This document shows, piece after piece, positions 38,683 to 55,307 of a DNA stretch of 64,000 nucleotides. The DNA is from Edaphobacter sp. 12200R-103 (GTDB lineage: Bacteria > Acidobacteriota > Terriglobia > Terriglobales > Acidobacteriaceae), in the NCBI RefSeq assembly GCF_010093025.1, contig NZ_CP048114.1, forward strand, positions 1,922,001-1,986,000. Direction: 5' to 3'. Numbering within the stretch: position 1 is the first letter of the stretch; every line of letters starts with the position of its first letter. The notes beneath the pieces are model-generated. The model searched no databases, had not been told where the DNA came from, and worked only from the letters and a program-made list of their open reading frames with translations. The translations under genes were made by a program, and so were the position numbers.

Positions 38683-38760
38683 GTCCCCGTCGTCTAGCCC
38701 GGCCCAGGACACCGCCCTTTCACGGCGATAACACGGGTTCGAATCCCGTCGGGGACGCCA
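38683..38760 (+). tRNA. tRNA-Glu (TTC)
   Basis: Acceptor stem GTCCCCG pairs with CGGGGAC; discriminator G and encoded CCA end at 38760. The anticodon loop CTTTCAC gives TTC. The D arm and T arm (CGGGTTCGAATCCCG) are normal; the anticodon stem has a C-A mismatch at its first pair. The 3' 44 bases lie inside the 45-bp left attachment core of the element, and the tRNA is reconstituted intact at this end. Confidence 0.95.
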
Positions 38761-45220: not shown

Positions 45221-46609
45221 CTAAGCCGTCTTTGCCTGCCGCTGCACCAGCAGAGGCCCGTTCATAATCTCAACAGGTTCAGCAAATCCAAACGATGGTG
45301 CATGAGCACGAACGGACTGTTGTTTGTAGTCAGAGCACAAATGTGCGTAATGCTTGATGGTGATGCGAATGTCTTTGTGGCCTAGCTGTTTTTGCAGCAC
45401 TTCTAGCGGCATTCCGTTCATAACGCTGTGACTCGCGTATGTGTGTCGCAATATGTGGAAGGTCACACCCTCAATGTGGGCATCCTTGCAAGCGGCATCC
45501 ATTGGCCGTTGTTGCTCTGAGGTCTTCCACGGTTCGCCGTTCGCTCTTACAAACATTGGGTCATTCGGGTTGCGTCCCTTCACCATCTGTTTGAAGAAGG
45601 CAATTCCTTCATCGTTCAAGTGAATGTGGCGAGACTCCCCGTTCTTGCTTGTGGCAACGTAGACCGTTCCATTGGGTTCATTGAAGTCTTCAACGAACAT
45701 CGCAGCAAGTTCGCCGTAACGCGCACCTGTAACCAGTGCGCCTTTCACCAACCGCCGAAAGTCTGTTTCACATACAGGAATGAATGCCTTCAATTCGCTG
45801 ACTGAAAGAAAACGAATCTTGGCCGCGTCAGCATTGCGGAACGCTTTGACATTTTCCCACGCTGCTTTAGTGCTAACCTTCCGCTCTACACAAGCATGGT
45901 TCAAAGCAGCCTTCAAAACCGTGAGTATGCGATTTGCAGATGCCTGACGTTTGCGCAGTGTTTCCGGGTCATCATCTATTTCCCGGTGTGCTTGCTTCAG
46001 TGGAATCTTCGTCTCTGTGACGCGCATTCTGTATTGGCCCTTTGGCTTGCCATGAACCATGCGGACGCACCAGACCTTTTCCTTGGCGAACCCTGTGCGT
46101 GTACGGGGTGAACCGTCAGCCAGAGCATCGCGCCACTTCTTCACCTTGCCGTGCGTCAGCTTGCTTAGTTGAATGGTGCCCAACGCTGGCAATATGTGGG
46201 CATCAATGGTTGATTTGGTGCGGTCTTGAGGCTTGCGCTTCTCGCGTTCAAGATGCTTCAGGTAGTCGGCCATTGCGTCAGCAACGGTGTACTTGCCGCT
46301 GACCACCTCACCGGCATCATCTGCGGCCTTCCTTGTTGCCCACTCTCTTGCCTTCACTTGTGCTTGGTCGCAGGACAGCACGGCGATGCCGTCAGCGTCC
46401 GCGTGATCGTCAGCCACGCCCAAAGGCTCAAAGCTGTATTTGGTGCCCCCCTCGTGCCGTCTGGCAATCCATGACCCGCCGCGCAGCCCCTTGCGGTAGC
46501 CAAGGGCAAGGCCGGTCTGAATCTTGGTCGTGTGCAGCTTCGCGCTGACGGGAATGGAGCGGCGGGCCGTCCGGGTGTCCAGCTTGAGGTTTCCTTTGAG
46601 TCTTGCCAT
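45221..46609 (-). CDS. int: Tyrosine integrase of the element
   Basis: 462 residues. The catalytic set is visible: TGARYGEL (Arg), SKNGESRHIHL (Lys), H385-I-L-R388, LGHKD (H411) and KHYAHL (nucleophile Y421). The N-terminal arm and SAM-like domains are basic and long. It lies next to the right attachment site and reads inward, the usual layout for tRNA-targeting integrases. Confidence 0.93.
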   Translation of the reverse strand: MARLKGNLKLDTRTARRSIPVSAKLHTTKIQTGLALGYRKGLRGGSWIARRHEGGTKYSFEPLGVADDHADADGIAVLSCDQAQVKAREWATRKAADDAGEVVSGKYTVADAMADYLKHLEREKRKPQDRTKSTIDAHILPALGTIQLSKLTHGKVKKWRDALADGSPRTRTGFAKEKVWCVRMVHGKPKGQYRMRVTETKIPLKQAHREIDDDPETLRKRQASANRILTVLKAALNHACVERKVSTKAAWENVKAFRNADAAKIRFLSVSELKAFIPVCETDFRRLVKGALVTGARYGELAAMFVEDFNEPNGTVYVATSKNGESRHIHLNDEGIAFFKQMVKGRNPNDPMFVRANGEPWKTSEQQRPMDAACKDAHIEGVTFHILRHTYASHSVMNGMPLEVLQKQLGHKDIRITIKHYAHLCSDYKQQSVRAHAPSFGFAEPVEIMNGPLLVQRQAKTA

Positions 46610-46781: not shown

Positions 46782-46826
46782 CTTTCACGGCGATAACACG
46801 GGTTCGAATCCCGTCGGGGACGCCAA
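46782..46826 (+). repeat. Right attachment site (attR core)
   Basis: 45 bp identical to 38717-38761. It holds only the 3' half of the tRNA (no D arm or acceptor 5' strand upstream), so it is not a second tRNA gene. Confidence 0.93.
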
Positions 46827-47243
46827 ATCCTTTCAGGCACATATAACGGGCTTCGCCATCTAGTCGATGGTAAATCCGAACGTCAAGGCTCTTCCATTAA
46901 TCTCTGAGTCGAGGTCTGTGGCAGCCACCTGGACCTAAGGACAAATGTCTCATCGGCTTTTGCATCACCTTGAATTCAACCTCCAGACTTCCCAGGTGTG
47001 CCGTATGAATGTCGGAAGATGCGCCCTCCGATCCGCTTGTTGATGCGCACGTTTTCAGCAATCGGACGAATGAATTTAAGGAGGATTGAAGCCTGCGAAG
47101 TTGGGCAGCCTACGAAGCCCGTTCGGCCACTCTTGATATACGCATCCTCCTGGGCTGATCGGTCCAGTCTTGCTCGCGCGAAGTCTCTAATTAGTAAAAA
47201 ATAGAAAAGCCGATCTTTTGCCTGGAGCCGGTGCGAGGAAAAC
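46827..47243. other. 417-bp region between the element and the sigma-54 activator gene
   Basis: I see no credible gene, repeat or strong hairpin here. It should contain the activator promoter. A short AGGACAAATG near 46937 has no long frame behind it. Confidence 0.4.
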
Positions 47244-49399
47244 ATGATGGAGAAATACGAACCTTCTCCCGTATCTCAAATCCCCAGCCAGCAACTCTCC
47301 GGCGATCCGGAGTCGTTCTCTGGCGAGTCTGTGCTGAATATTCTGAAATTGATTCTCTCAGGAACGTCTTTAACAGACGTTCTCTCGATCATTGCCAGAT
47401 TGGTCGACTCCAAGGAGACGGAATGTTGTGCACAATCTGGCTCCCGACAGCTCTAGGGAACAGCCTCTATTGTGCGACCGCTCCAAGTATGCCCGGTTTC
47501 GTGGTTGAAGCTGGAACCATGCAGATCGGACCTCAGGGGGGTTCCTGCGGCGCGGCCGTATACAGAAGAGAACCCGTGTTTGCTCTTGATGTACTTGAGG
47601 ATCCGGTTTGGGATGTTTATCGTGACCGGATCCTGCCCTTCGGGATTCGGGCGGTATGGTCGCAGCCACTGTTCACACGAGACGGCCAGGTCTTGGGTAC
47701 TTTCGCAATTCATTATCGTGAAGTGCGTAGCCCCAATCCTCTAGACATCAAGGTCATCGAGAATGCAAGCCGTATTGCCGCCATCGCGATCGAGCGCCAC
47801 CAGAATGAGGAGAAGTTGCGGCTTGAGCGCGATCGGTTGCGCTTGCTGCTAGAGATTACAAGCAGCATGGCATCCAAGCTTGATTTGCAGCAGCTCTTGG
47901 AGACACTGTCTACCGATCTCCTTAGGGTGACGCTGTGTGATTTCTGCGCGGTACTTCTTCCTAATGACGACAAGGAAAATCTGAGCGTAACGACGCTATA
48001 CAATCCGGAGGCGCGAGCTTCCATAGCGGATGGCCCGTATGTACTGAAGGCTGGTTCTTTGTGTGGCGAGGCTTTTCGAACAGGCAAGACTCAATTCTTG
48101 AACGATTTCGAAGACCTTCGTCTTGCCGTAGGAGATGTCGCGAATAGTGGAGGAAGGCGCACCCAGCAGCGGTTCACAGAGGAAGGGTTTGTATCAGGAT
48201 GTTGCCTTCCTCTCCTGGGCAGGAATGGAGTGATTGGCGTTCTAACCGCCTTAAATCGCTCAAAAAAGACGCTGGAGCACGATGAGATCAGTTTTCTTGA
48301 ACAACTCTCCCGCCAAGTGGCCCTGGCGATCGAGAATGCACTCGAATATGAAAAGGCAATAACGGATCGAGACAAAGAGACGAAGCAGCGACTTTATCTC
48401 GAAGAAGAGGTTCGCTCCGAATTTGGGGAGATTGTCGGAGATAGTCCCGCATTGAGAGCCGCGCTGGAAATGGTCTCGATAGTGGCTCCCACAGATTCCA
48501 GCGTTCTGATCCTGGGAGAAACCGGAACAGGCAAGGAGCTGATCGCACGTGCGATCCACAACCTGAGCAATCGTCGAAATCGACCTTTTGTAAAGTTGAA
48601 CTGCGCAGCTATTCCGCTAGGCCTTCTCGAAAGCGAGCTGTTCGGCCACGAACGAGGAGCATTCACCGGAGCAATCGCACAGAAGACAGGCCGATTCGAA
48701 CTCGCAAATAAAGGAACATTGTTTCTGGATGAAGTTGGTGACATCCCGCTGGAACTTCAGGCGAAGCTGCTGCGCGTTCTACAGGAGCAGGAATTTGAAC
48801 GGCTAGGCGGAACTCACACGCACAAAGTTGATGTTCGCGTGATTGCGGCTACGCATCGTGACCTGCCCGCTATGGTAAAACAAACGACATTTCGCGAGGA
48901 TCTCTACTATCGCCTGAAAGTCTTCCCTATCCAGATCCCTGCTCTGAGGCAGCGAACTGAAGATATTCCCCGTCTAGTCCGACATTTCGTCGATTTATAT
49001 GCGCGCCGGATGAGCAAAAAGATCGATGACATCCCCCGCGAAACGATAGATGCGTTGACCAAGTATCGATGGCCGGGAAACGTGCGGGAACTGCAGAACT
49101 TTATCGAACGCGCGGTGATCCTTTCGCCCCATACGGTGTTACGCGCGCCGATCACGGAGTTGGAGCCGTATACCGCGTCCAAAGGGCATCTTCCTTCTCT
49201 ATCAAATCTTGAGGATATGGAACGGGACCACATCCTGAGAGCACTTGACGCAAGCAACTGGGTGGTCGGAGGACGGCACGGTGCAGCAGAGCGTTTGGGA
49301 TTAAAACGGACGTCACTGGTTTACAAAATGCAGAAGCTTGGTATCGGCCGCAATTCTTATTCCGCTAACAGTTTCAGAAAGCCTGCTTCCTCTGATTGA
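47244..49399 (+). pseudogene. Sigma-54-dependent GAF-GAF-AAA+-Fis activator with apparent frameshift
   Basis: The N-terminus starts at ATG 47244 (SVLNILKLILSGTSLTDVLSIIARLVDSKE) and is typical of a GAF domain, but the frame ends at 47456. The continuation GMLCTIWL...ATAPSMPGFV...GPQGGSCGAAVYRREPVFALDV lies in the -1 frame; loss of one G near AAGGAGACGG (47412-47421) explains this. Then a second GAF, AAA+ (GETGTGKE Walker A, GAFTGA sigma-54 loop, LFLDEVGD Walker B) and a Fis HTH (AAERLGLKRTSLVYKMQKL). If the frameshift is a sequencing error the activator is intact; otherwise translation from ATG 47423 would give a partial first GAF. It probably controls the two -24/-12 promoters downstream. 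Confidence 0.8.
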
Positions 49400-49449: not shown

Positions 49450-49484
49450 CTGTCAGTGACGGACATTGGTCACGGGTTCGTCAC
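49450..49484 (+). promoter_or_regulatory. Candidate sigma-54 activator-binding site upstream of egtB
   Basis: CTGTCAGTGAC...GTCACGGGTTCGTCAC: GTGAC-N8-GTCAC plus a second GTCAC. 23 of 35 bases match the site at 51170-51204, and both are exactly 120 bp upstream of a -24 element. Confidence 0.6.
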
Positions 49485-49569
49485 CGGATTAAGACCGTAG
49501 GGAACGGATTCGTTTCGAAGCTACACGACTTCAGATCACTCTCAGTACGCTTGTGGCGTATTCGGACTT

Positions 49570-49585
49570 TGGCATCTCGCTTGCA
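49570..49585 (+). promoter_or_regulatory. Sigma-54 (-24/-12) promoter of egtB
   Basis: TGGCAT-CTCGC-TTGCA, with GG and GC separated by 10 bases as RpoN needs; it matches the consensus TGGCAC-N5-TTGCA at 10 of 11 positions. It lies 92 bp upstream of the EgtB-like start. Confidence 0.75.
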
Positions 49586-49677
49586 GCTTGATGTCTCGCC
49601 GGTAAGGAACCAGCTTTGAATGTTTGAAATCGCGTGTATGTCTGAGTTGCTTCGCGAGTCCGGCCACCATCTTAGCC

Positions 49678-50940
49678 ATGCCAGATGTCGAAGCAAAATA
49701 TAAAGCAGTGCGATCTATGACCCAATCTCTTGCGGCCACATTGTCTGCTGAGGACCAGATGGTTCAATCGTTCCCCGAAGCAAGTCCTATAAAGTGGCAC
49801 CAAGCCCATACAACGTGGTTCTTCGAAACCTTTATTTTGAGGCCATTTCTTCCAGACTATCGCCCCTTCCGGGAAGACTTTCACCGTCTCTTCAACAGCT
49901 ACTACATCTCCCTCGGCGAGGAGATCCCCCAAAAGAAGCTTCGGGCTTCATTTTCGCGCCCTTCCCTCGATGAGGTTCTGGCCTTTCGCGACCATGTCGA
50001 CCATGCAATGGAACGACTGTTCGCTTCCACAATCGATGGAGAAGTATCTCGACGTATAGTGCTCGGTTTGAATCATGAGCAGCAACATCAGGAGCTGGTG
50101 CTCACAGACATCAAGCATGCATTTTTCTCGAATCCGATCCACCCGGTGTACGGATCGCCAGACACCCCTCAAACACCACCATTTTCTGTGCCAAGTCTCG
50201 AGTGGCGGGAATTCTCTGGCGCCCTGGTCGAGATCGGTCGCTCTCCGAACTTCGAAGATCCGTTTGATTTCTGCTTCGACAACGAGACTCCGCGCCACCG
50301 AGTACTCCTCGAGCCATTCGAGTTTGCGAATCGCAAAGTGACTTGCCGAGAGTATTTGGAATTCATGGCTGATGACGGGTATATCCGTTCGGAGCTTTGG
50401 CTCTCTGATGGTTGGGACGCAGTTCAGGAAAGTAGATGGGAAGCGCCACTCTATTGGGAGCGCGATGCCAGCGAGGAAACAGGCTGGCGGATGTTTACCC
50501 TCAGGGGATGGCAGGGAATTTCAGGATTGCTCGATGTGCCTGTGTGTCACGTAAGCTTCTACGAAGCCGACGCATTCGCGCGCTGGCGTGGATGCCGCCT
50601 TCCCACCGAAGCTGAGTGGGAGTCCGTCGCCAGCCAGCTGCCTCAGCATGGAAACTTCCTGGATACCGGGAGACTGCACCCCTCGCGGGTCACCGAGTCT
50701 GGTGTCACACAAATGTTTGGCGACTGCTGGGAATGGACTTCCAGCCCCTATACGGGATATCCAGGATACAAACGTCCTCCCGGAGCACTGGGTGAATACA
50801 ACGGAAAATTCATGGTGAATCAGATGATTTTGCGGGGAGGATCGTGTGTCACACCCGCAGATCATGTGCGTGCGACCTACCGTAACTTCTTCCCTCCAGC
50901 CATGCGTTGGCAATTCACCGGAATACGCTTGGCTATTTGA
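49678..50940 (+). CDS. egtB: EgtB-like iron-dependent sulfoxide synthase
   Basis: 420 residues from the ATG at 49678; the frame is open to 49624. A DinB-like N-terminal half carries the iron motif H133-E-Q-Q-H137-Q-E139 (HxxxHxE), with the earlier KWHQAHTTWFFETFIL. The C-terminal half is a formylglycine-generating-enzyme-like domain (RLPTEAEWE, GDCWEWTSSPY, RGGSCVTP, RNFFPPAMRWQFTGIRLA). EgtB joins hercynine and a thiol in ergothioneine synthesis, but no egtD gene is next to it, so a related thiol or selenium role is possible. Confidence 0.85.
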   Translation: MPDVEAKYKAVRSMTQSLAATLSAEDQMVQSFPEASPIKWHQAHTTWFFETFILRPFLPDYRPFREDFHRLFNSYYISLGEEIPQKKLRASFSRPSLDEVLAFRDHVDHAMERLFASTIDGEVSRRIVLGLNHEQQHQELVLTDIKHAFFSNPIHPVYGSPDTPQTPPFSVPSLEWREFSGALVEIGRSPNFEDPFDFCFDNETPRHRVLLEPFEFANRKVTCREYLEFMADDGYIRSELWLSDGWDAVQESRWEAPLYWERDASEETGWRMFTLRGWQGISGLLDVPVCHVSFYEADAFARWRGCRLPTEAEWESVASQLPQHGNFLDTGRLHPSRVTESGVTQMFGDCWEWTSSPYTGYPGYKRPPGALGEYNGKFMVNQMILRGGSCVTPADHVRATYRNFFPPAMRWQFTGIRLAI

Positions 50941-51169
50941 AAGGATTGGCCCCAGCACATTTCATTTCTGGAAACACAAACCATTCACATGGAAAATAGC
51001 TACAAGTTCACCAATACCTCAATTGCAAGCCTCACACGTGACTCAGAGCTTCGGTGAGAACACGCGGAAGAACCAACGGGGACCGTATGCGTTCCCTCTC
51101 GCCTCCCCGATGGACTTGTAATAGCCCACAGCGATAACAGCGGTGTCCTGTCGGTACGCTGTCTATTTC

Positions 51170-51204
51170 CTGTCACTGTTGGTATTCCGTCACGGTTCTG
51201 TCAG
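51170..51204 (+). promoter_or_regulatory. Candidate sigma-54 activator-binding site upstream of the DUF427 gene
   Basis: CTGTCACTGTTGG...GTCACGGTTCTGTCAG, matching 49450-49484 at 23 of 35 positions (CTGTCA, TG, GG, GTCACGG and GTCA aligned without gaps). Confidence 0.6.
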
Positions 51205-51289
51205 GCGAGTTCATCCTTATCCACAGTTGGAACATTGTTATCTGATAGGAACGACGAATTTTGCAGCACATTTAATTCGAATAGATTGT

Positions 51290-51305
51290 TGGCTCGTGAC
51301 TTGCA
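51290..51305 (+). promoter_or_regulatory. Sigma-54 (-24/-12) promoter of the DUF427 gene
   Basis: TGGCTC-GTGAC-TTGCA with the required GG-N10-GC spacing; 85 bp upstream of the ATG at 51391. Confidence 0.72.
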
Positions 51306-51390: not shown

Positions 51391-52260
51391 ATGGGATTGT
51401 CTTGGCAGCAAGGTCCACTATCGTCGGGAGCAATAGGCCGATTTCTAGTTCCTGAGCCCCTACCAAAACGGCTACTCTACATCGAACCGTTGCGACGGCG
51501 CATGCGGGTTCGTTTTGGGGGAACATGGATCGCTGACAGCGAACATGTGATTCTTCTCTTCGAACCTGGACGTTATCCGGTCGCCTACTTTCCGGAAACA
51601 GACATCGCTCCAGACGTTCTGGAGGCAACTCCGCATACGACGCAGCACCAAGACCTCGGCCGCACCTCCTGGCACATCGTAAAGGCAGGAGGGCAACGAG
51701 CCTCACGAGGCGCCTGGCAGCATATCGAACTGCCAGCTTATGCAGACGAGTTGCGCGATCACATCGCGTTTGCATGGGCCGCGATGGAGGCCTTCTATGA
51801 AGAGGATGAGCGCATCTTAGGCCACGCTACGGATAGCTACCATCGGATCGACATACGCCGGACATCTCGAAGCCTTGTCGTTCGACATCGCGACTGCATC
51901 ATTGCAAACACAAACCGTCCACTTGCCCTTTATGAATCTGGCTTTGCTCCTCGGTGGTACGTTCCCCATGCTGATGTCGACATGTCTTCTCTAACGGCGG
52001 TAGAACATCAGACTTTCTGCCCGTACAAAGGACTCTGCAACTATTACGACATCGGAGCTGCACGTCTTGGGGCGTGGTCCTATCCGAAGGCCTATTCAGA
52101 AGTTGACCGCATCTCCGGGTTCGTCTCGTTCGAGCCAGACATCGTCTCGGTTGAATTGGACGGTAAGGCTATGAAGCTTGAGCCGGGCCAGACAGTAGTT
52201 GCCCATGGCCCAGATCGTCTACTCACTATTGAAGAAGGACAGCCGGGCGTTCGGGCATGA
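51391..52260 (+). CDS. Protein with two DUF427 domains
   Basis: 289 residues: a first DUF427 unit (about 25-125, RRRMRVRFGGTWIADSEHVILLFEPGRYPVAYFPETDI) and a second (about 150-265, IRRTSRSLVVRHRDCIIANTNRPLALYESGFAPRWYVPHADV), with CPYKGLCNYYDI as the usual cysteine-containing motif. DUF427 proteins are small beta-rich domains of unknown function, often near oxidative or solvent stress genes. It starts the run controlled by the second sigma-54 promoter. Confidence 0.8.
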   Translation: MGLSWQQGPLSSGAIGRFLVPEPLPKRLLYIEPLRRRMRVRFGGTWIADSEHVILLFEPGRYPVAYFPETDIAPDVLEATPHTTQHQDLGRTSWHIVKAGGQRASRGAWQHIELPAYADELRDHIAFAWAAMEAFYEEDERILGHATDSYHRIDIRRTSRSLVVRHRDCIIANTNRPLALYESGFAPRWYVPHADVDMSSLTAVEHQTFCPYKGLCNYYDIGAARLGAWSYPKAYSEVDRISGFVSFEPDIVSVELDGKAMKLEPGQTVVAHGPDRLLTIEEGQPGVRA

Positions 52261-52310: not shown

Positions 52311-52829
52311 GTGGTACAAGCTAGCTTTTCAATCGAGGTGATTGTCCTTCCGGTAGCTGACGTGGAGCGCGCAATAGGCTTCTACGTCGATCAGATCGGA
52401 TTCGTCCTGGATGTCGACTATTCGCCCACACGCACGTTCCGGATCGTTCAACTCACTCCACCAGGCTCGAATTGCTCTATCCAAATTGGTAAAGGACTTA
52501 CCGACGAGCCCACAGGCTCAGTCCAGAATCTTTATCTGGTTGTCTCGGATCTTGAAACCACACGGAATAGTTTGCTCGAACGTGGGGTGATGGTTAGCGA
52601 TATTCGGCATAAAACTCCAATCGGCAGATGGGACGGCGGATTTGCATCGGGCGTCGACCCAATGCGTGGAGACTATGCGAGCTTCGCCGACTTCTCCGAT
52701 CCAGATGGCAATGGATGGGTATTGCAGGAACGCGGATATCGACGAAATACAACAGAAACGGAATTTAGCGGGCGCGAATGGGCTTCCCAAACAACGCTTC
52801 CGCCACTGCGAAAACCCCTATCAACCTGA
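52311..52829 (+). CDS. VOC-family (glyoxalase/bleomycin-resistance fold) protein
   Basis: 172 residues from the GTG at 52311 (AGGGGA upstream). The single VOC module reads IEVIVLPVADVERAIGFYVDQIGFVLDVDY...NLYLVVSDLETTRNSLLERGV...DYASFADFSDPDGNGWVLQE. Metal and substrate cannot be predicted. It is 50 bp after the DUF427 gene and probably co-transcribed. Confidence 0.85.
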   Translation: MVQASFSIEVIVLPVADVERAIGFYVDQIGFVLDVDYSPTRTFRIVQLTPPGSNCSIQIGKGLTDEPTGSVQNLYLVVSDLETTRNSLLERGVMVSDIRHKTPIGRWDGGFASGVDPMRGDYASFADFSDPDGNGWVLQERGYRRNTTETEFSGREWASQTTLPPLRKPLST

Positions 52830-52853: not shown

Positions 52854-53795
52854 ATGACCCAAATCAATTCAGCAGAAGCTGTAAACAGAAGCGATGCGAT
52901 ACCGCGGGTATCAGTTTCCAGAGTAGAGACAGATGACGTTCAGGTGTTCTACCGGTCTGCCGGCGATCCTGCTGCTCCTACTATTCTCTTACTGCATGGT
53001 TTTCCGTCATCATCATTCATGTTTCGCGAACTGATCACGCGTCTCGCAGACGAGTACTGCGTAATTGCTCCGGATCTTCCAGGTTTTGGGTTTACCGAAA
53101 TCCCCGAGAATCGCAATTACATCTATTCCTTCGACGCATTGACGGACACCATGGAAGCTTTCACTGAGGTGTTAGCACTGCAGAGCTATGCACTTTATGC
53201 GTTCGACTATGGTGCACCGATCGGCTTTCGGCTGGCAATGCGCCATCCGGAGCGGGTGACAGCGATCGTCACCCAGAATGGCAACGCATATGAAGCAGGC
53301 CTTGGCGATGCTTGGGGACCGATCAGAACTTACTGGTCTCAACCCACTGCAGAGAATCGTGAGGCCCTACGTAAAGACATCCTGACCTTCGAAGGTACGC
53401 GTTGGCAATATACCCACGGTGTAACAGACCCGGGCAAGATTGCTCCTGAATCCTACACTTTGGATGCTGCGCTACTTGAGCGTCCTGGGAATAAGGATAT
53501 CCAACTAGATTTGTTCCTCGACTATGCGTCGAACCTTAAGCTGTATCCTCGGTTTCAGGAATACTTTCGTACATTCGCTCCACCCCTGCTAGCCATATGG
53601 GGAAAAAACGATCCTTTCTTCGTTCCCGCTGGTGCAGAAGCTTTCCGGCAAGACGTCCCCGGTGCGCGGGTTCGCCTTCTTGAAACTGGTCATTTTGCAT
53701 TAGAAACTCACGTGTCAGAGATCGCGTCGGCAATGAAGGAGTTTCTCTGCCCTGATGGCGCTCGTGCAGAAGACAGAAAGACAGCGTCGCGATGA
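52854..53795 (+). CDS. Alpha/beta hydrolase, epoxide hydrolase/haloalkane dehalogenase type
   Basis: 313 residues with a strong AAGGAGG site. Landmarks: LLHGFPSSSFMFRELI (oxyanion hole), VIAPDLPGFGFTE, nucleophile aspartate in YAFDYGAPIGFRLA, acid loop GKNDPFF and catalytic histidine in ETGHFALETH. The nucleophile Asp points to epoxide hydrolase or dehalogenase chemistry, not esterase. Its stop overlaps the next gene by 4 bp (ATGA). Confidence 0.85.
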   Translation: MTQINSAEAVNRSDAIPRVSVSRVETDDVQVFYRSAGDPAAPTILLLHGFPSSSFMFRELITRLADEYCVIAPDLPGFGFTEIPENRNYIYSFDALTDTMEAFTEVLALQSYALYAFDYGAPIGFRLAMRHPERVTAIVTQNGNAYEAGLGDAWGPIRTYWSQPTAENREALRKDILTFEGTRWQYTHGVTDPGKIAPESYTLDAALLERPGNKDIQLDLFLDYASNLKLYPRFQEYFRTFAPPLLAIWGKNDPFFVPAGAEAFRQDVPGARVRLLETGHFALETHVSEIASAMKEFLCPDGARAEDRKTASR

Positions 53796-54490
53796 ATGAG
53801 AGGACCCCTCACACGGTGGTGTTGGTTCATGGTGCCTGGGCAGACGGATCATGTTGGAGCAACATCATTCGTCCACTACAAAGAATGGGCTTGAAGATAA
53901 TAGCAGCTCCACTTCCGTTGACATCGCTGATCGACGACACAGATGCATTGCAGCGCGCGATCGAGAGGACTTCAGGATCTGTCACGCTGGTCGGGCATGC
54001 ATATGCGGGCGCGGTAATTGGCTCCACTCTCTCGGCCCAGGTGACGTCTTTAGCATTTATTGCGGCGCTGGCTCCGGCCGAGGGAGAAACCGTCGCCGAT
54101 GTTTTCTATCGCGCGTTGCCACACCCACAAGCGCCGCATCTGCAACCGGACGCTCACGGATTGATCTGGATGCCCGAAGAAGGTTTTCGTTCAGCCGTTG
54201 CTCACGAAGCTTCGACAGATCAACTCGCCATCATGTCTGCCGTTCAACGGCCTATCGCCGTGCAATGCATTCAGGAGCAGGTGCAACACTCCAGATGGAG
54301 AAAGACGCCGTCCTGGTATCTGGTCGCAGAGAAGGATCGGATGGTCAATCCAGAAACACAGCGATTCATGGCGCAGAGAATGAATGCGAACATGCGGACT
54401 CAGAAAGTCGACCATTCACCGATGTACACAGCCCCGGACTCCGTTGTCGACTTGATCATCGAGGCTGTTGGCACGAACTCTGCAAAATAA
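53792..54490 (+). CDS. Alpha/beta hydrolase with Ala at the nucleophile position
   Basis: 232 residues of the small esterase-like family (VVLVHGAWADGSCWSNIIRPLQ; LVAEKDRMVNPETQRFMAQRM; DHSPMYTAPDSVVDLI). The nucleophile elbow is VGHAYAGAVIG, where GHSYGG is expected, so the serine is alanine (codon GCA). It is coupled to the preceding hydrolase by ATGA. Either the family works differently or this is a non-catalytic binding protein. Confidence 0.82.
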   Translation: MNERTPHTVVLVHGAWADGSCWSNIIRPLQRMGLKIIAAPLPLTSLIDDTDALQRAIERTSGSVTLVGHAYAGAVIGSTLSAQVTSLAFIAALAPAEGETVADVFYRALPHPQAPHLQPDAHGLIWMPEEGFRSAVAHEASTDQLAIMSAVQRPIAVQCIQEQVQHSRWRKTPSWYLVAEKDRMVNPETQRFMAQRMNANMRTQKVDHSPMYTAPDSVVDLIIEAVGTNSAK

Positions 54491-54737
54491 GTGAGCCAAT
54501 TAAAGAGAAGCGATAGCAATAAAGGTGTGACGAATAATCTGCCTGAGCTCAGACAGTGTCAGCTTTCCGTCACGCACTTGCCATCTGGATTCGCCCGGGT
54601 CGCAGGCGACGAGAGAGATCAACGGAGGTGAGGTCACATGCTGCAAACCAGAAGATACCGATGATACAGTGGCCGCTTTACCTAAGTACCGCAGGCGAAG
54701 CGAAAAGGTATTTCCCAAAAGGAAAAGGAGATGACTT

Positions 54738-55307
54738 GTGAACCAGGTAGTTTCAGCGAAATCAATTAGCGCGCCTAACGGAGACCGTTTGCCTTCCGGC
54801 AATCTCTTTGCTGGAGCTTCGGGGCGGCTGGTCCGCCTGGCTGTGTGGATCTACGATCGGAACATTCCGTTTCTGATAGCCAGCGTTAGCATGATCGTCA
54901 TGCTGCTCTGGGCCGGCGCGTTCAAGATGACTGCTCCGGGAGCTGAAGGGATCATCCCGTTAGTTTCGAACAGCCCATTGATATGGTGGCACTTCAATTT
55001 GTTTGGTCCATATATCGGTTCGGATTTGATCGGGATTACAGAATGGCTTGCAGCGTTCTTCATCATTGCGGGATATTTCAAGCCTCAGGCAGGAATCATC
55101 GGTGGACTCATTGCTTCCCTCATGTTTTTTATAACAAGCACCATGATCATCTCGACTCCCGGAACAACTATGCTGGTTCATGGGATCCGATATATGACTT
55201 TCCTGGGTCTATTCCTCTTCAAAGACATCATCTCCTTCGGGGTGTCTTTCTATCTGATCGGCTACTTCGGGAAGAAATCTGTCGTTCTGAACCGAGTGTC
55301 TGCGTAA
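54738..55307 (+). CDS. DUF417 (YkgB/RclC-type) membrane protein
   Basis: 189 residues from the GTG at 54738 (AAGGAG 7 bp upstream). Four hydrophobic segments (FLIASVSMIVMLLWAGAFKM, LIGITEWLAAFFIIAGYF, IGGLIASLMFFITSTMII, MTFLGLFLFKDIISFGVSFYL) and the family WAGxFKMTxxGAEGIxPLVxNSPL block. E. coli RclC belongs to this family and is induced by reactive chlorine species; the function is unknown. A 247-bp gap precedes it, with no gene that I trust on the plus strand. Confidence 0.85.
   Translation: MNQVVSAKSISAPNGDRLPSGNLFAGASGRLVRLAVWIYDRNIPFLIASVSMIVMLLWAGAFKMTAPGAEGIIPLVSNSPLIWWHFNLFGPYIGSDLIGITEWLAAFFIIAGYFKPQAGIIGGLIASLMFFITSTMIISTPGTTMLVHGIRYMTFLGLFLFKDIISFGVSFYLIGYFGKKSVVLNRVSA

Follow-up and report, generated by a model that had tools for sequence, protein, structure and literature searches.

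Enhancer sites (UAS) of the FhlA/NifA type consist of inverted TGT/ACA repeats 10–12 bp apart, and in the Clostridiales, where sigma-54 regulons comprise 39 groups of enhancer-binding proteins (EBPs), most UAS-promoter distances lie between 100 and 250 bp (both from the available text of PMC6615313). For NorR, a GAF-controlled activator, three enhancer sites before norVW scaffold the hexamer (available text of PMC2941729). The rcl genes of E. coli are controlled by RclR and defend against HOSCN; RclA reduces HOSCN, and loss of RclC leads to HOSCN sensitivity (available text of PMC12096828). From the Acidobacteriota we found no sigma-54 enhancer-activator pair described among the matches listed when the open literature was searched by titles and the starts of abstracts. 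Searches on egtB with sigma-54, on hypochlorite with GAF enhancer-binding proteins and on enhancer spacing gave nothing on the regulon reported here, and the available part of the main text of PMC12316311 does not contain 'acidobacteri'.

Here we describe a locus in a 64,000-bp stretch of DNA (the window; positions 1922001–1986000 of the genome of Edaphobacter sp. 12200R-103, a single 4.55-Mb contig), in which a sigma-54 activator gene is followed by two similar 35-bp sites, each upstream of a -24/-12 element. We consider it very likely that these elements belong to a real regulon of sigma-54 promoters and their enhancers, whose kind is known and whose spacing is narrow and falls into two classes. 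Like FhlA, the formate hydrogenlyase activator of E. coli, the window's activator has GAF domains, an AAA+ domain with GAFTGA and a Fis-type HTH, and the FhlA model NF011958 is its best NCBIfam match. It differs from FhlA in that its score of 505.5 bits falls below the equivalog cut-off of 830, in that no formate genes were seen among the regulon targets and in that the site is composite, with extra GTCA copies. It likewise scores below the equivalog cut-offs for NifA (398.3 versus 528.85 bits, TIGR01817) and NorR (355.7 versus 476 bits, NF003451). NorR has one GAF domain; the activator in the window has a GAF-GAF arrangement. The targets also differ from those of NorR, whereas GAF control and several enhancer sites are features that the available account of NorR shares with this locus. 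The core of the site is close to TGN-N10-TCR, an inverted-repeat geometry similar to that which the available text of PMC6615313 gives for the FhlA/NifA UAS. As in the Clostridiales regulons of the same text, an orthologous EBP goes with its own UAS motif and a -24/-12 promoter downstream; the phylum is different, and the spacing here (119–135 bp) is narrower, a loose comparison because one EBP group is set against 39 pooled ones. RclC (DUF417) and RclA have distant relatives among the targets, which in this resemble rclABC of E. coli, but these relatives score far below the RclA and RclC cut-offs, and the available account of rcl has control by RclR and no sigma-54 activator.

Results

On the + strand the activator gene is followed by an egtB-like gene, a DUF427 gene, genes for a glyoxalase-fold protein and two alpha/beta hydrolases, a DUF417 gene and an MIP channel gene (start 55612) (Table 1). 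The activator matches PF00158 (248.6 bits) and PF02954 (33.2 bits) and contains the sequences GAFTGA and GETGTGKE, and the genome also encodes RpoN (TIGR02395, 361.4 bits against a cut-off of 277.35). The egtB-like gene scores 536.1 bits with TIGR03440, well above the cut-off of 360, and is thus a member of the EgtB family. The DUF427, glyoxalase and two hydrolase genes probably form one operon because the gaps between them are small (50 bp, 24 bp and a 4-bp overlap). An earlier note on this DNA had assigned the promoter at 51290 to the DUF427 gene; that gene is indeed the first behind the promoter, but the gene spacing suggests that a four-gene operon is served rather than DUF427 alone. Judging from gene order and spacing, we propose that two transcription units, egtB and DUF427-glyoxalase-hydrolase-hydrolase, would make up the regulon in this genome.

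Table 1. Features of the activator locus, in coordinates of the window
Feature	Coordinates	Strand	Remarks
Sigma-54 activator, GAF-GAF-AAA+(GAFTGA)-Fis HTH	47231..49399	+	open frame as it runs
70-codon frame, activator N-terminus as in orthologues	47244..47456	+	in a frame other than the rest of the gene
UAS 1, composite 35-bp site	49450..49484	+	matrix score 45.8
Sigma-54 -24/-12 element TGGCATCTCGCTTGCA of the egtB-like gene	49570..49585	+	score 15.2
egtB-like gene, first target	49681..50940	+	TIGR03440 above cut-off
UAS 2	51170..51204	+	matrix score 37.5
Sigma-54 -24/-12 element TGGCTCGTGACTTGCA of the DUF427 operon	51290..51305	+	score 16.5, best in the window
DUF427 gene, first behind UAS 2	51391..52260	+	PF04248, two stretches
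Glyoxalase-fold protein, likely DUF427 operon	52311..52829	+	50-bp gap to the DUF427 gene
Alpha/beta hydrolase 1, likely DUF427 operon	52854..53795	+	in other genomes, relatives most often stand first behind the UAS
Alpha/beta hydrolase 2	53792..54490	+	overlaps the stop of hydrolase 1
Weak UAS-like sequence before the DUF417 gene	54550..54584	+	matrix score 15.0
DUF417 membrane protein, distant RclC relative	54738..55307	+	regulon member in relatives; uncertain here

The two 35-bp sites are identical at 23 positions without gaps, and each starts exactly 120 bp before its -24/-12 element, as the earlier note had described in arguing that chance would hardly give the same spacing twice. In simulation, a 23/35 match at equal offset arose in none of 300 pairs of first-order Markov sequences. 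Among 68,121 offset pairs of the actual sequences (40–300 bp in each upstream region) the best were the equal offsets 120 and 121. A 23/35 match at any offset occurred in 2 of 300 such pairs, so the evidence from the window by itself is good and not decisive, and it is the relatives that decide. Both promoter elements read TGGC-N7-TTGCA, with GG at -24 and GC at -12, as expected of sigma-54 promoters. The note had asked for them to be scored with a sigma-54 matrix; using one with approximate weights, and hence approximate scores, we found them to rank first and third among the 14 places in the window that score above 11. A UAS matrix trained on 46 sites, all from other genomes (training sites score at least 33.2), placed the window's two sites first (45.8) and second (37.5), with the third place scoring only 15.0. 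Searched throughout the genome with up to three mismatches, the motif was found at the window's two sites, with no further UAS at that stringency, and the reversed control gave 1 match.

With a pattern for the UAS alone (one mismatch allowed), 398 genomes of the family yielded 56 matches in 27 genomes, and the reversed control yielded 9. By our own judgement 48 matches in 19 genomes are convincing, and we dropped one match each in G370, G275, G208, G014, G328, G304, G274 and G108; from the reversed control about 8 chance matches are expected, which is about the number dropped. None of these eight has a sigma-54 match of at least 9 bits at 119–135 bp (G014 and G328 have one of 4.0 at 123). Such a match lies 119–135 bp downstream of 46 of the 48 convincing sites, a somewhat favourable figure because the eight were dropped partly for absence of a promoter, and the unselected figure is 46 of 56. 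Likewise, at 46 of 48 sites no sigma-54 match within about 300 bp in either direction scores higher than the one 119–135 bp downstream on the same strand, and the other two sites have a weaker match at 130. By comparison, 11 control intervals of the same 17-bp width held a match of at least 9 in 0–1 cases each, and the opposite strand in 1 of 48, a contrast that is large enough not to depend on the details of the approximate matrix.

A combined pattern of UAS, spacer and -24/-12 element matched 13 places in 9 of 250 family genomes (reversed control, 3), and exactly two in the genome of the window; the matches in G087 and G276 look like chance. At the level of the class, 9 of 220 genomes had matches (reversed control, 6). 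Convincing sites outside the family were those in G521 and G438, the latter with a poor -24/-12 match downstream (best 5.9 at 112; 4.5 at 131), and matches in G468 and G483, which scored 7.6–15.8 with the UAS matrix, were treated as chance. Weaker UAS-matrix matches (12–33) in the loci examined included four more with a promoter at 130–134 bp. When the region upstream of egtB was compared in seven genomes, columns conserved in at least six of them numbered 23 of 35 in the UAS and 8 of 16 in the -24/-12 element, whereas the spacer had 9 of 83 such columns, the leader 10 of 95 and the stretch bordering the UAS on its upstream side 14 of 45. The comparison with relatives, to which the earlier note had looked for confirmation or refutation, was therefore in its favour: 19 of 398 family genomes share the site together with its -24/-12 element and a narrow range of spacings, and 2 further genomes of the class have the site, counts that are not independent because the sites are related by descent.

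UAS 1 carries GTCA three times (relative positions 3, 20, 31) and has the inverted repeat GTGAC-N8-GTCAC in full; UAS 2 fits this repeat only in part (CTGTT-N8-GTCAC). The letters named in the search pattern (GTCA, S, TG, GG, GTCR, T and GTCA) are conserved by construction, so that the unnamed positions provide the independent evidence. Over the 48 sites, position 1 is C in 40, position 14 is A in 33, position 17 is T in 42, position 18 is C in 35 and position 24 is C in 41, while positions 2 and 11 are C or T, and position 29 T or C, in all 48. The core is close to GTGNC-N8-GTCAC and is flanked on both sides by more GTCA copies; GCGAC blocks, which are weaker, stand at -10 and -22. A UAS with several half-sites would suit a hexamer put together from several dimers, as described for NorR.

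With the first base of the 35-bp site and the T of TGG as end points, the spacing is 120 bp at both sites in the window, as the note had stated, but as a general constant 120 bp fails, since the 48 sites range from 119 to 135. The short spacings are 119 (2 sites), 120 (5), 121 (1) and 122 (1), and the long ones 128 (2), 129 (2), 130 (12), 131 (6), 132 (6), 133 (6), 134 (4) and 135 (1). These form two classes, 119–122 (n = 9) and 128–135 (n = 39), with 123–127 empty and the modes about one helical turn apart; one site of the short class (L162, at 120) also matches at 132 with a nearly equal score (11.6 versus 10.5), so that this class may have 8 members. Conservation of exactly 120 bp is ruled out within the genus itself, where the egtB sites of G000, G002, G036 and G422 stand at 120, 128, 132 and 132. 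The window's two promoters therefore belong to the minor class, and their equality reflects a shared preferred distance that is not unique to the pair.

A strict helical phase was also rejected. Resultant lengths for 47 sites are 0.48 at a period of 9.5 bp, 0.61 at 10.5 bp and 0.69 at 12 bp; they rise with the period, so that 10.5 bp is not singled out. Only the empty gap of 123–127 between the two modes favours phasing, which is plausible and unproven because the long class spans 8 bp and the period test is not specific for 10.5 bp. No IHF-like conserved element was seen between UAS and promoter, where promoter-aligned columns reach at most 0.59 bit, except at the two T that directly precede the -24 box.

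The distribution of the activator was determined with the window's protein as query in 53 family genomes (E ≤ 1e-140, at most 21 candidates scored per genome), of which the 34 without a convincing motif were picked by us and not at random. A full-length orthologue (at least 935 bits) is present in 18 of the 19 family genomes with the motif, the query's own included, and the other 17 orthologues are 64–75% identical to the query. All that the nineteenth genome, G354, has is a fragment of 290 residues (78% identical), which stands at a contig end and could be from the orthologue or from a short paralogue. The 34 genomes without a convincing motif gave at best 530.7 bits, with 45–53% identity. 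In G521 and G438, the genomes outside the family in which the motif had been found first, an orthologue adjoins the site (68–70% identical), and 12 other genomes of the class have none (best 545.8 bits, at most 54% identical). In total, the orthologue occurs in 20 of 21 motif genomes (the query's own included, the 21st being the ambiguous fragment) versus 0 of 46 others, three of which (G014, G468 and G483) have pattern matches judged to be chance. The earlier note had named the upstream activator as the natural regulator of both sites; this joint distribution of motif and orthologue supports such a role, although the two could also go together merely as neighbours.

Discussion

The elements are directly visible in these genomes, as are their conservation, the restriction of their spacing and the way they occur together with the activator; to these we would fit the following mechanism. 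With high probability, each site would be an enhancer (UAS) for the GAF-domain sigma-54 activator encoded upstream, and each -24/-12 element the RNA polymerase-sigma-54 promoter served by it. Dimers of the Fis-type HTH would read the GTCA half-sites, at least one pair of them as an inverted repeat close to GTGNC-N8-GTCAC, and the flanking GTCA copies may hold further subunits, leading to hexamer assembly. The GAF domains would sense a signal, and the AAA+ ring would reach the promoter by looping over about 120 or about 131 bp and then open the complex.

The genes behind the sites offer some guidance as to physiology. They are counted out of 47, because one of the 48 sites has no downstream open frame in the stretch examined, and were grouped by sequence similarity, with family names taken from one representative each and 'DoxX' being our own reading without a family search. 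The first gene encodes an alpha/beta hydrolase at 18 sites, EgtB at 9 (window included), a DUF417/DoxX-like protein at 5, a flavin disulfide reductase at 3, and an MIP channel, an esterase-like hydrolase and a DM13 protein at 2 each; the six single cases include the window's DUF427 gene, a class II aldolase and a chorismate mutase, and some may be wrong frames. For the flavin disulfide reductase (L171), RclA is the second-best NCBIfam match, at 342.6 bits against a cut-off of 740 (NF040477), and the DUF417 proteins score 44.3 bits (window) and 54.4 bits (L159) against the RclC cut-off of 275 (NF040476); DUF417 is the family of RclC, but both proteins lie far below these cut-offs. Because RclA- and RclC-like targets occur together with EgtB, our guess is that the regulon content points to defence against thiol-attacking oxidants or electrophiles.

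The same circuit may instead serve another physiology, in which the activator senses an organic substrate (an ester, a lactone or a halogenated compound) and the hydrolases are catabolic, not part of a stress response. Small metabolites are sensed by GAF activators, FhlA among them, alpha/beta hydrolases are the most frequent first target, and the window's alpha/beta hydrolase is closest to haloalkane-dehalogenase models, albeit below their cut-off. EgtB, the DUF417/RclC relatives, the RclA-like flavin disulfide reductase, DM13 and the MIP channel nevertheless fit stress better than a single pathway, and we regard catabolism as a possibility to be kept in mind without being inclined to it.

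Whichever signal is sensed, this isolate may have a weakened or non-functional circuit, because the N-terminal frame of the activator is broken. The N-terminus (47244–47456) and the rest of the gene lie in different frames, with the break between about 47405 and 47422, whereas all 17 full-length orthologues that we read have the N-terminal GAF domain in one frame with the rest; the window's activator gene thus lacks an intact one-frame sensory domain. Damage to the gene, a restart at ATG 47423 and an assembly error are all conceivable. An integrated element of about 8 kb, bounded by exact copies of a tRNA-Glu 3'-end (38735–38760 and 46800–46825, the only two in the genome at up to two mismatches) and carrying a phage-type integrase (45221–46609), ends about 420 bp before the activator gene. 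On a relict reading, a frameshift near this element disabled the activator, and UAS and promoters persist without it. The weak UAS-like sequence before the DUF417 gene, which has no sigma-54 element at the right distance and is possibly a decayed third site, would fit such a history. The scores of the two UAS and their -24/-12 elements, however, lie within the usual range, the downstream frame stays open throughout and offers the ATG at 47423 for restart, and the break itself may be a sequencing indel. We therefore think it unlikely, though worth taking seriously, that the circuit is a relict.

If the enhancer reading is right, the regulator could still be another bacterial enhancer-binding protein. 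Short AAA+-HTH paralogues without GAF domains occur in G218, G199, G324 and G354 (74–79% identical over AAA+-HTH); they could bind too, as possible unregulated or competing activators. The window genome has 29 activator candidates at first look, and it retains both UAS intact despite the broken activator frame. A short paralogue is found, however, in only 4 of the 19 family motif genomes (E ≤ 1e-140), versus a full-length orthologue in 18 of 19, the contig-end fragment of G354 could be either, and other activators (at most 54% identical) occur both with and without the motif. Control by a different regulator is for these reasons quite improbable. That the window's sites resemble each other by mere chance or through copying of a promoter, and have no function, is scarcely credible: the any-offset frequency in random pairs makes the window alone suggestive and not overwhelming, but orthologous sites are conserved across genera where spacers are not, and a search for the motif only leads to correctly spaced promoters in 46 of 56 cases.

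Returning to the enhancer served by the GAF activator, we put forward, tentatively and with more doubt than conviction, that it may be rigid and helically phased, working only at two distances from the -24 element, about 120 and about 131 bp, and that a redox/electrophile defence regulon may have been passed between acidobacterial genera as a unit with its activator. If so, promoters would have shifted in steps of full helical turns while the sequence of the spacer was free to drift, and the system would depart from the usual freely looping sigma-54 enhancer, with spacing as a readable evolutionary constraint. The narrow two-class spacing is in any case a natural data set on the reach and rotational phase of a sigma-54 activator, and the locus, with activator and 35-bp enhancer defined and the target families listed, can be put to the test in the cultured relative Edaphobacter lichenicola.

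Three further observations were made. The second-ranking sigma-54 match of the window is a strong one, TGGCACGAACTCTGCA at 54469–54484, and lies inside the end of hydrolase 2 with no UAS upstream. G521, outside the family, also has short AAA+-HTH paralogues of the activator, with 63–65% identity. Ergothioneine genes are present in the genome separately from the window's egtB: the only egtD above cut-off lies near another egtB at 4.42 Mb (G000:C1:4423064-4427751), and because egtD sits there, the egtB of the window is an extra copy.
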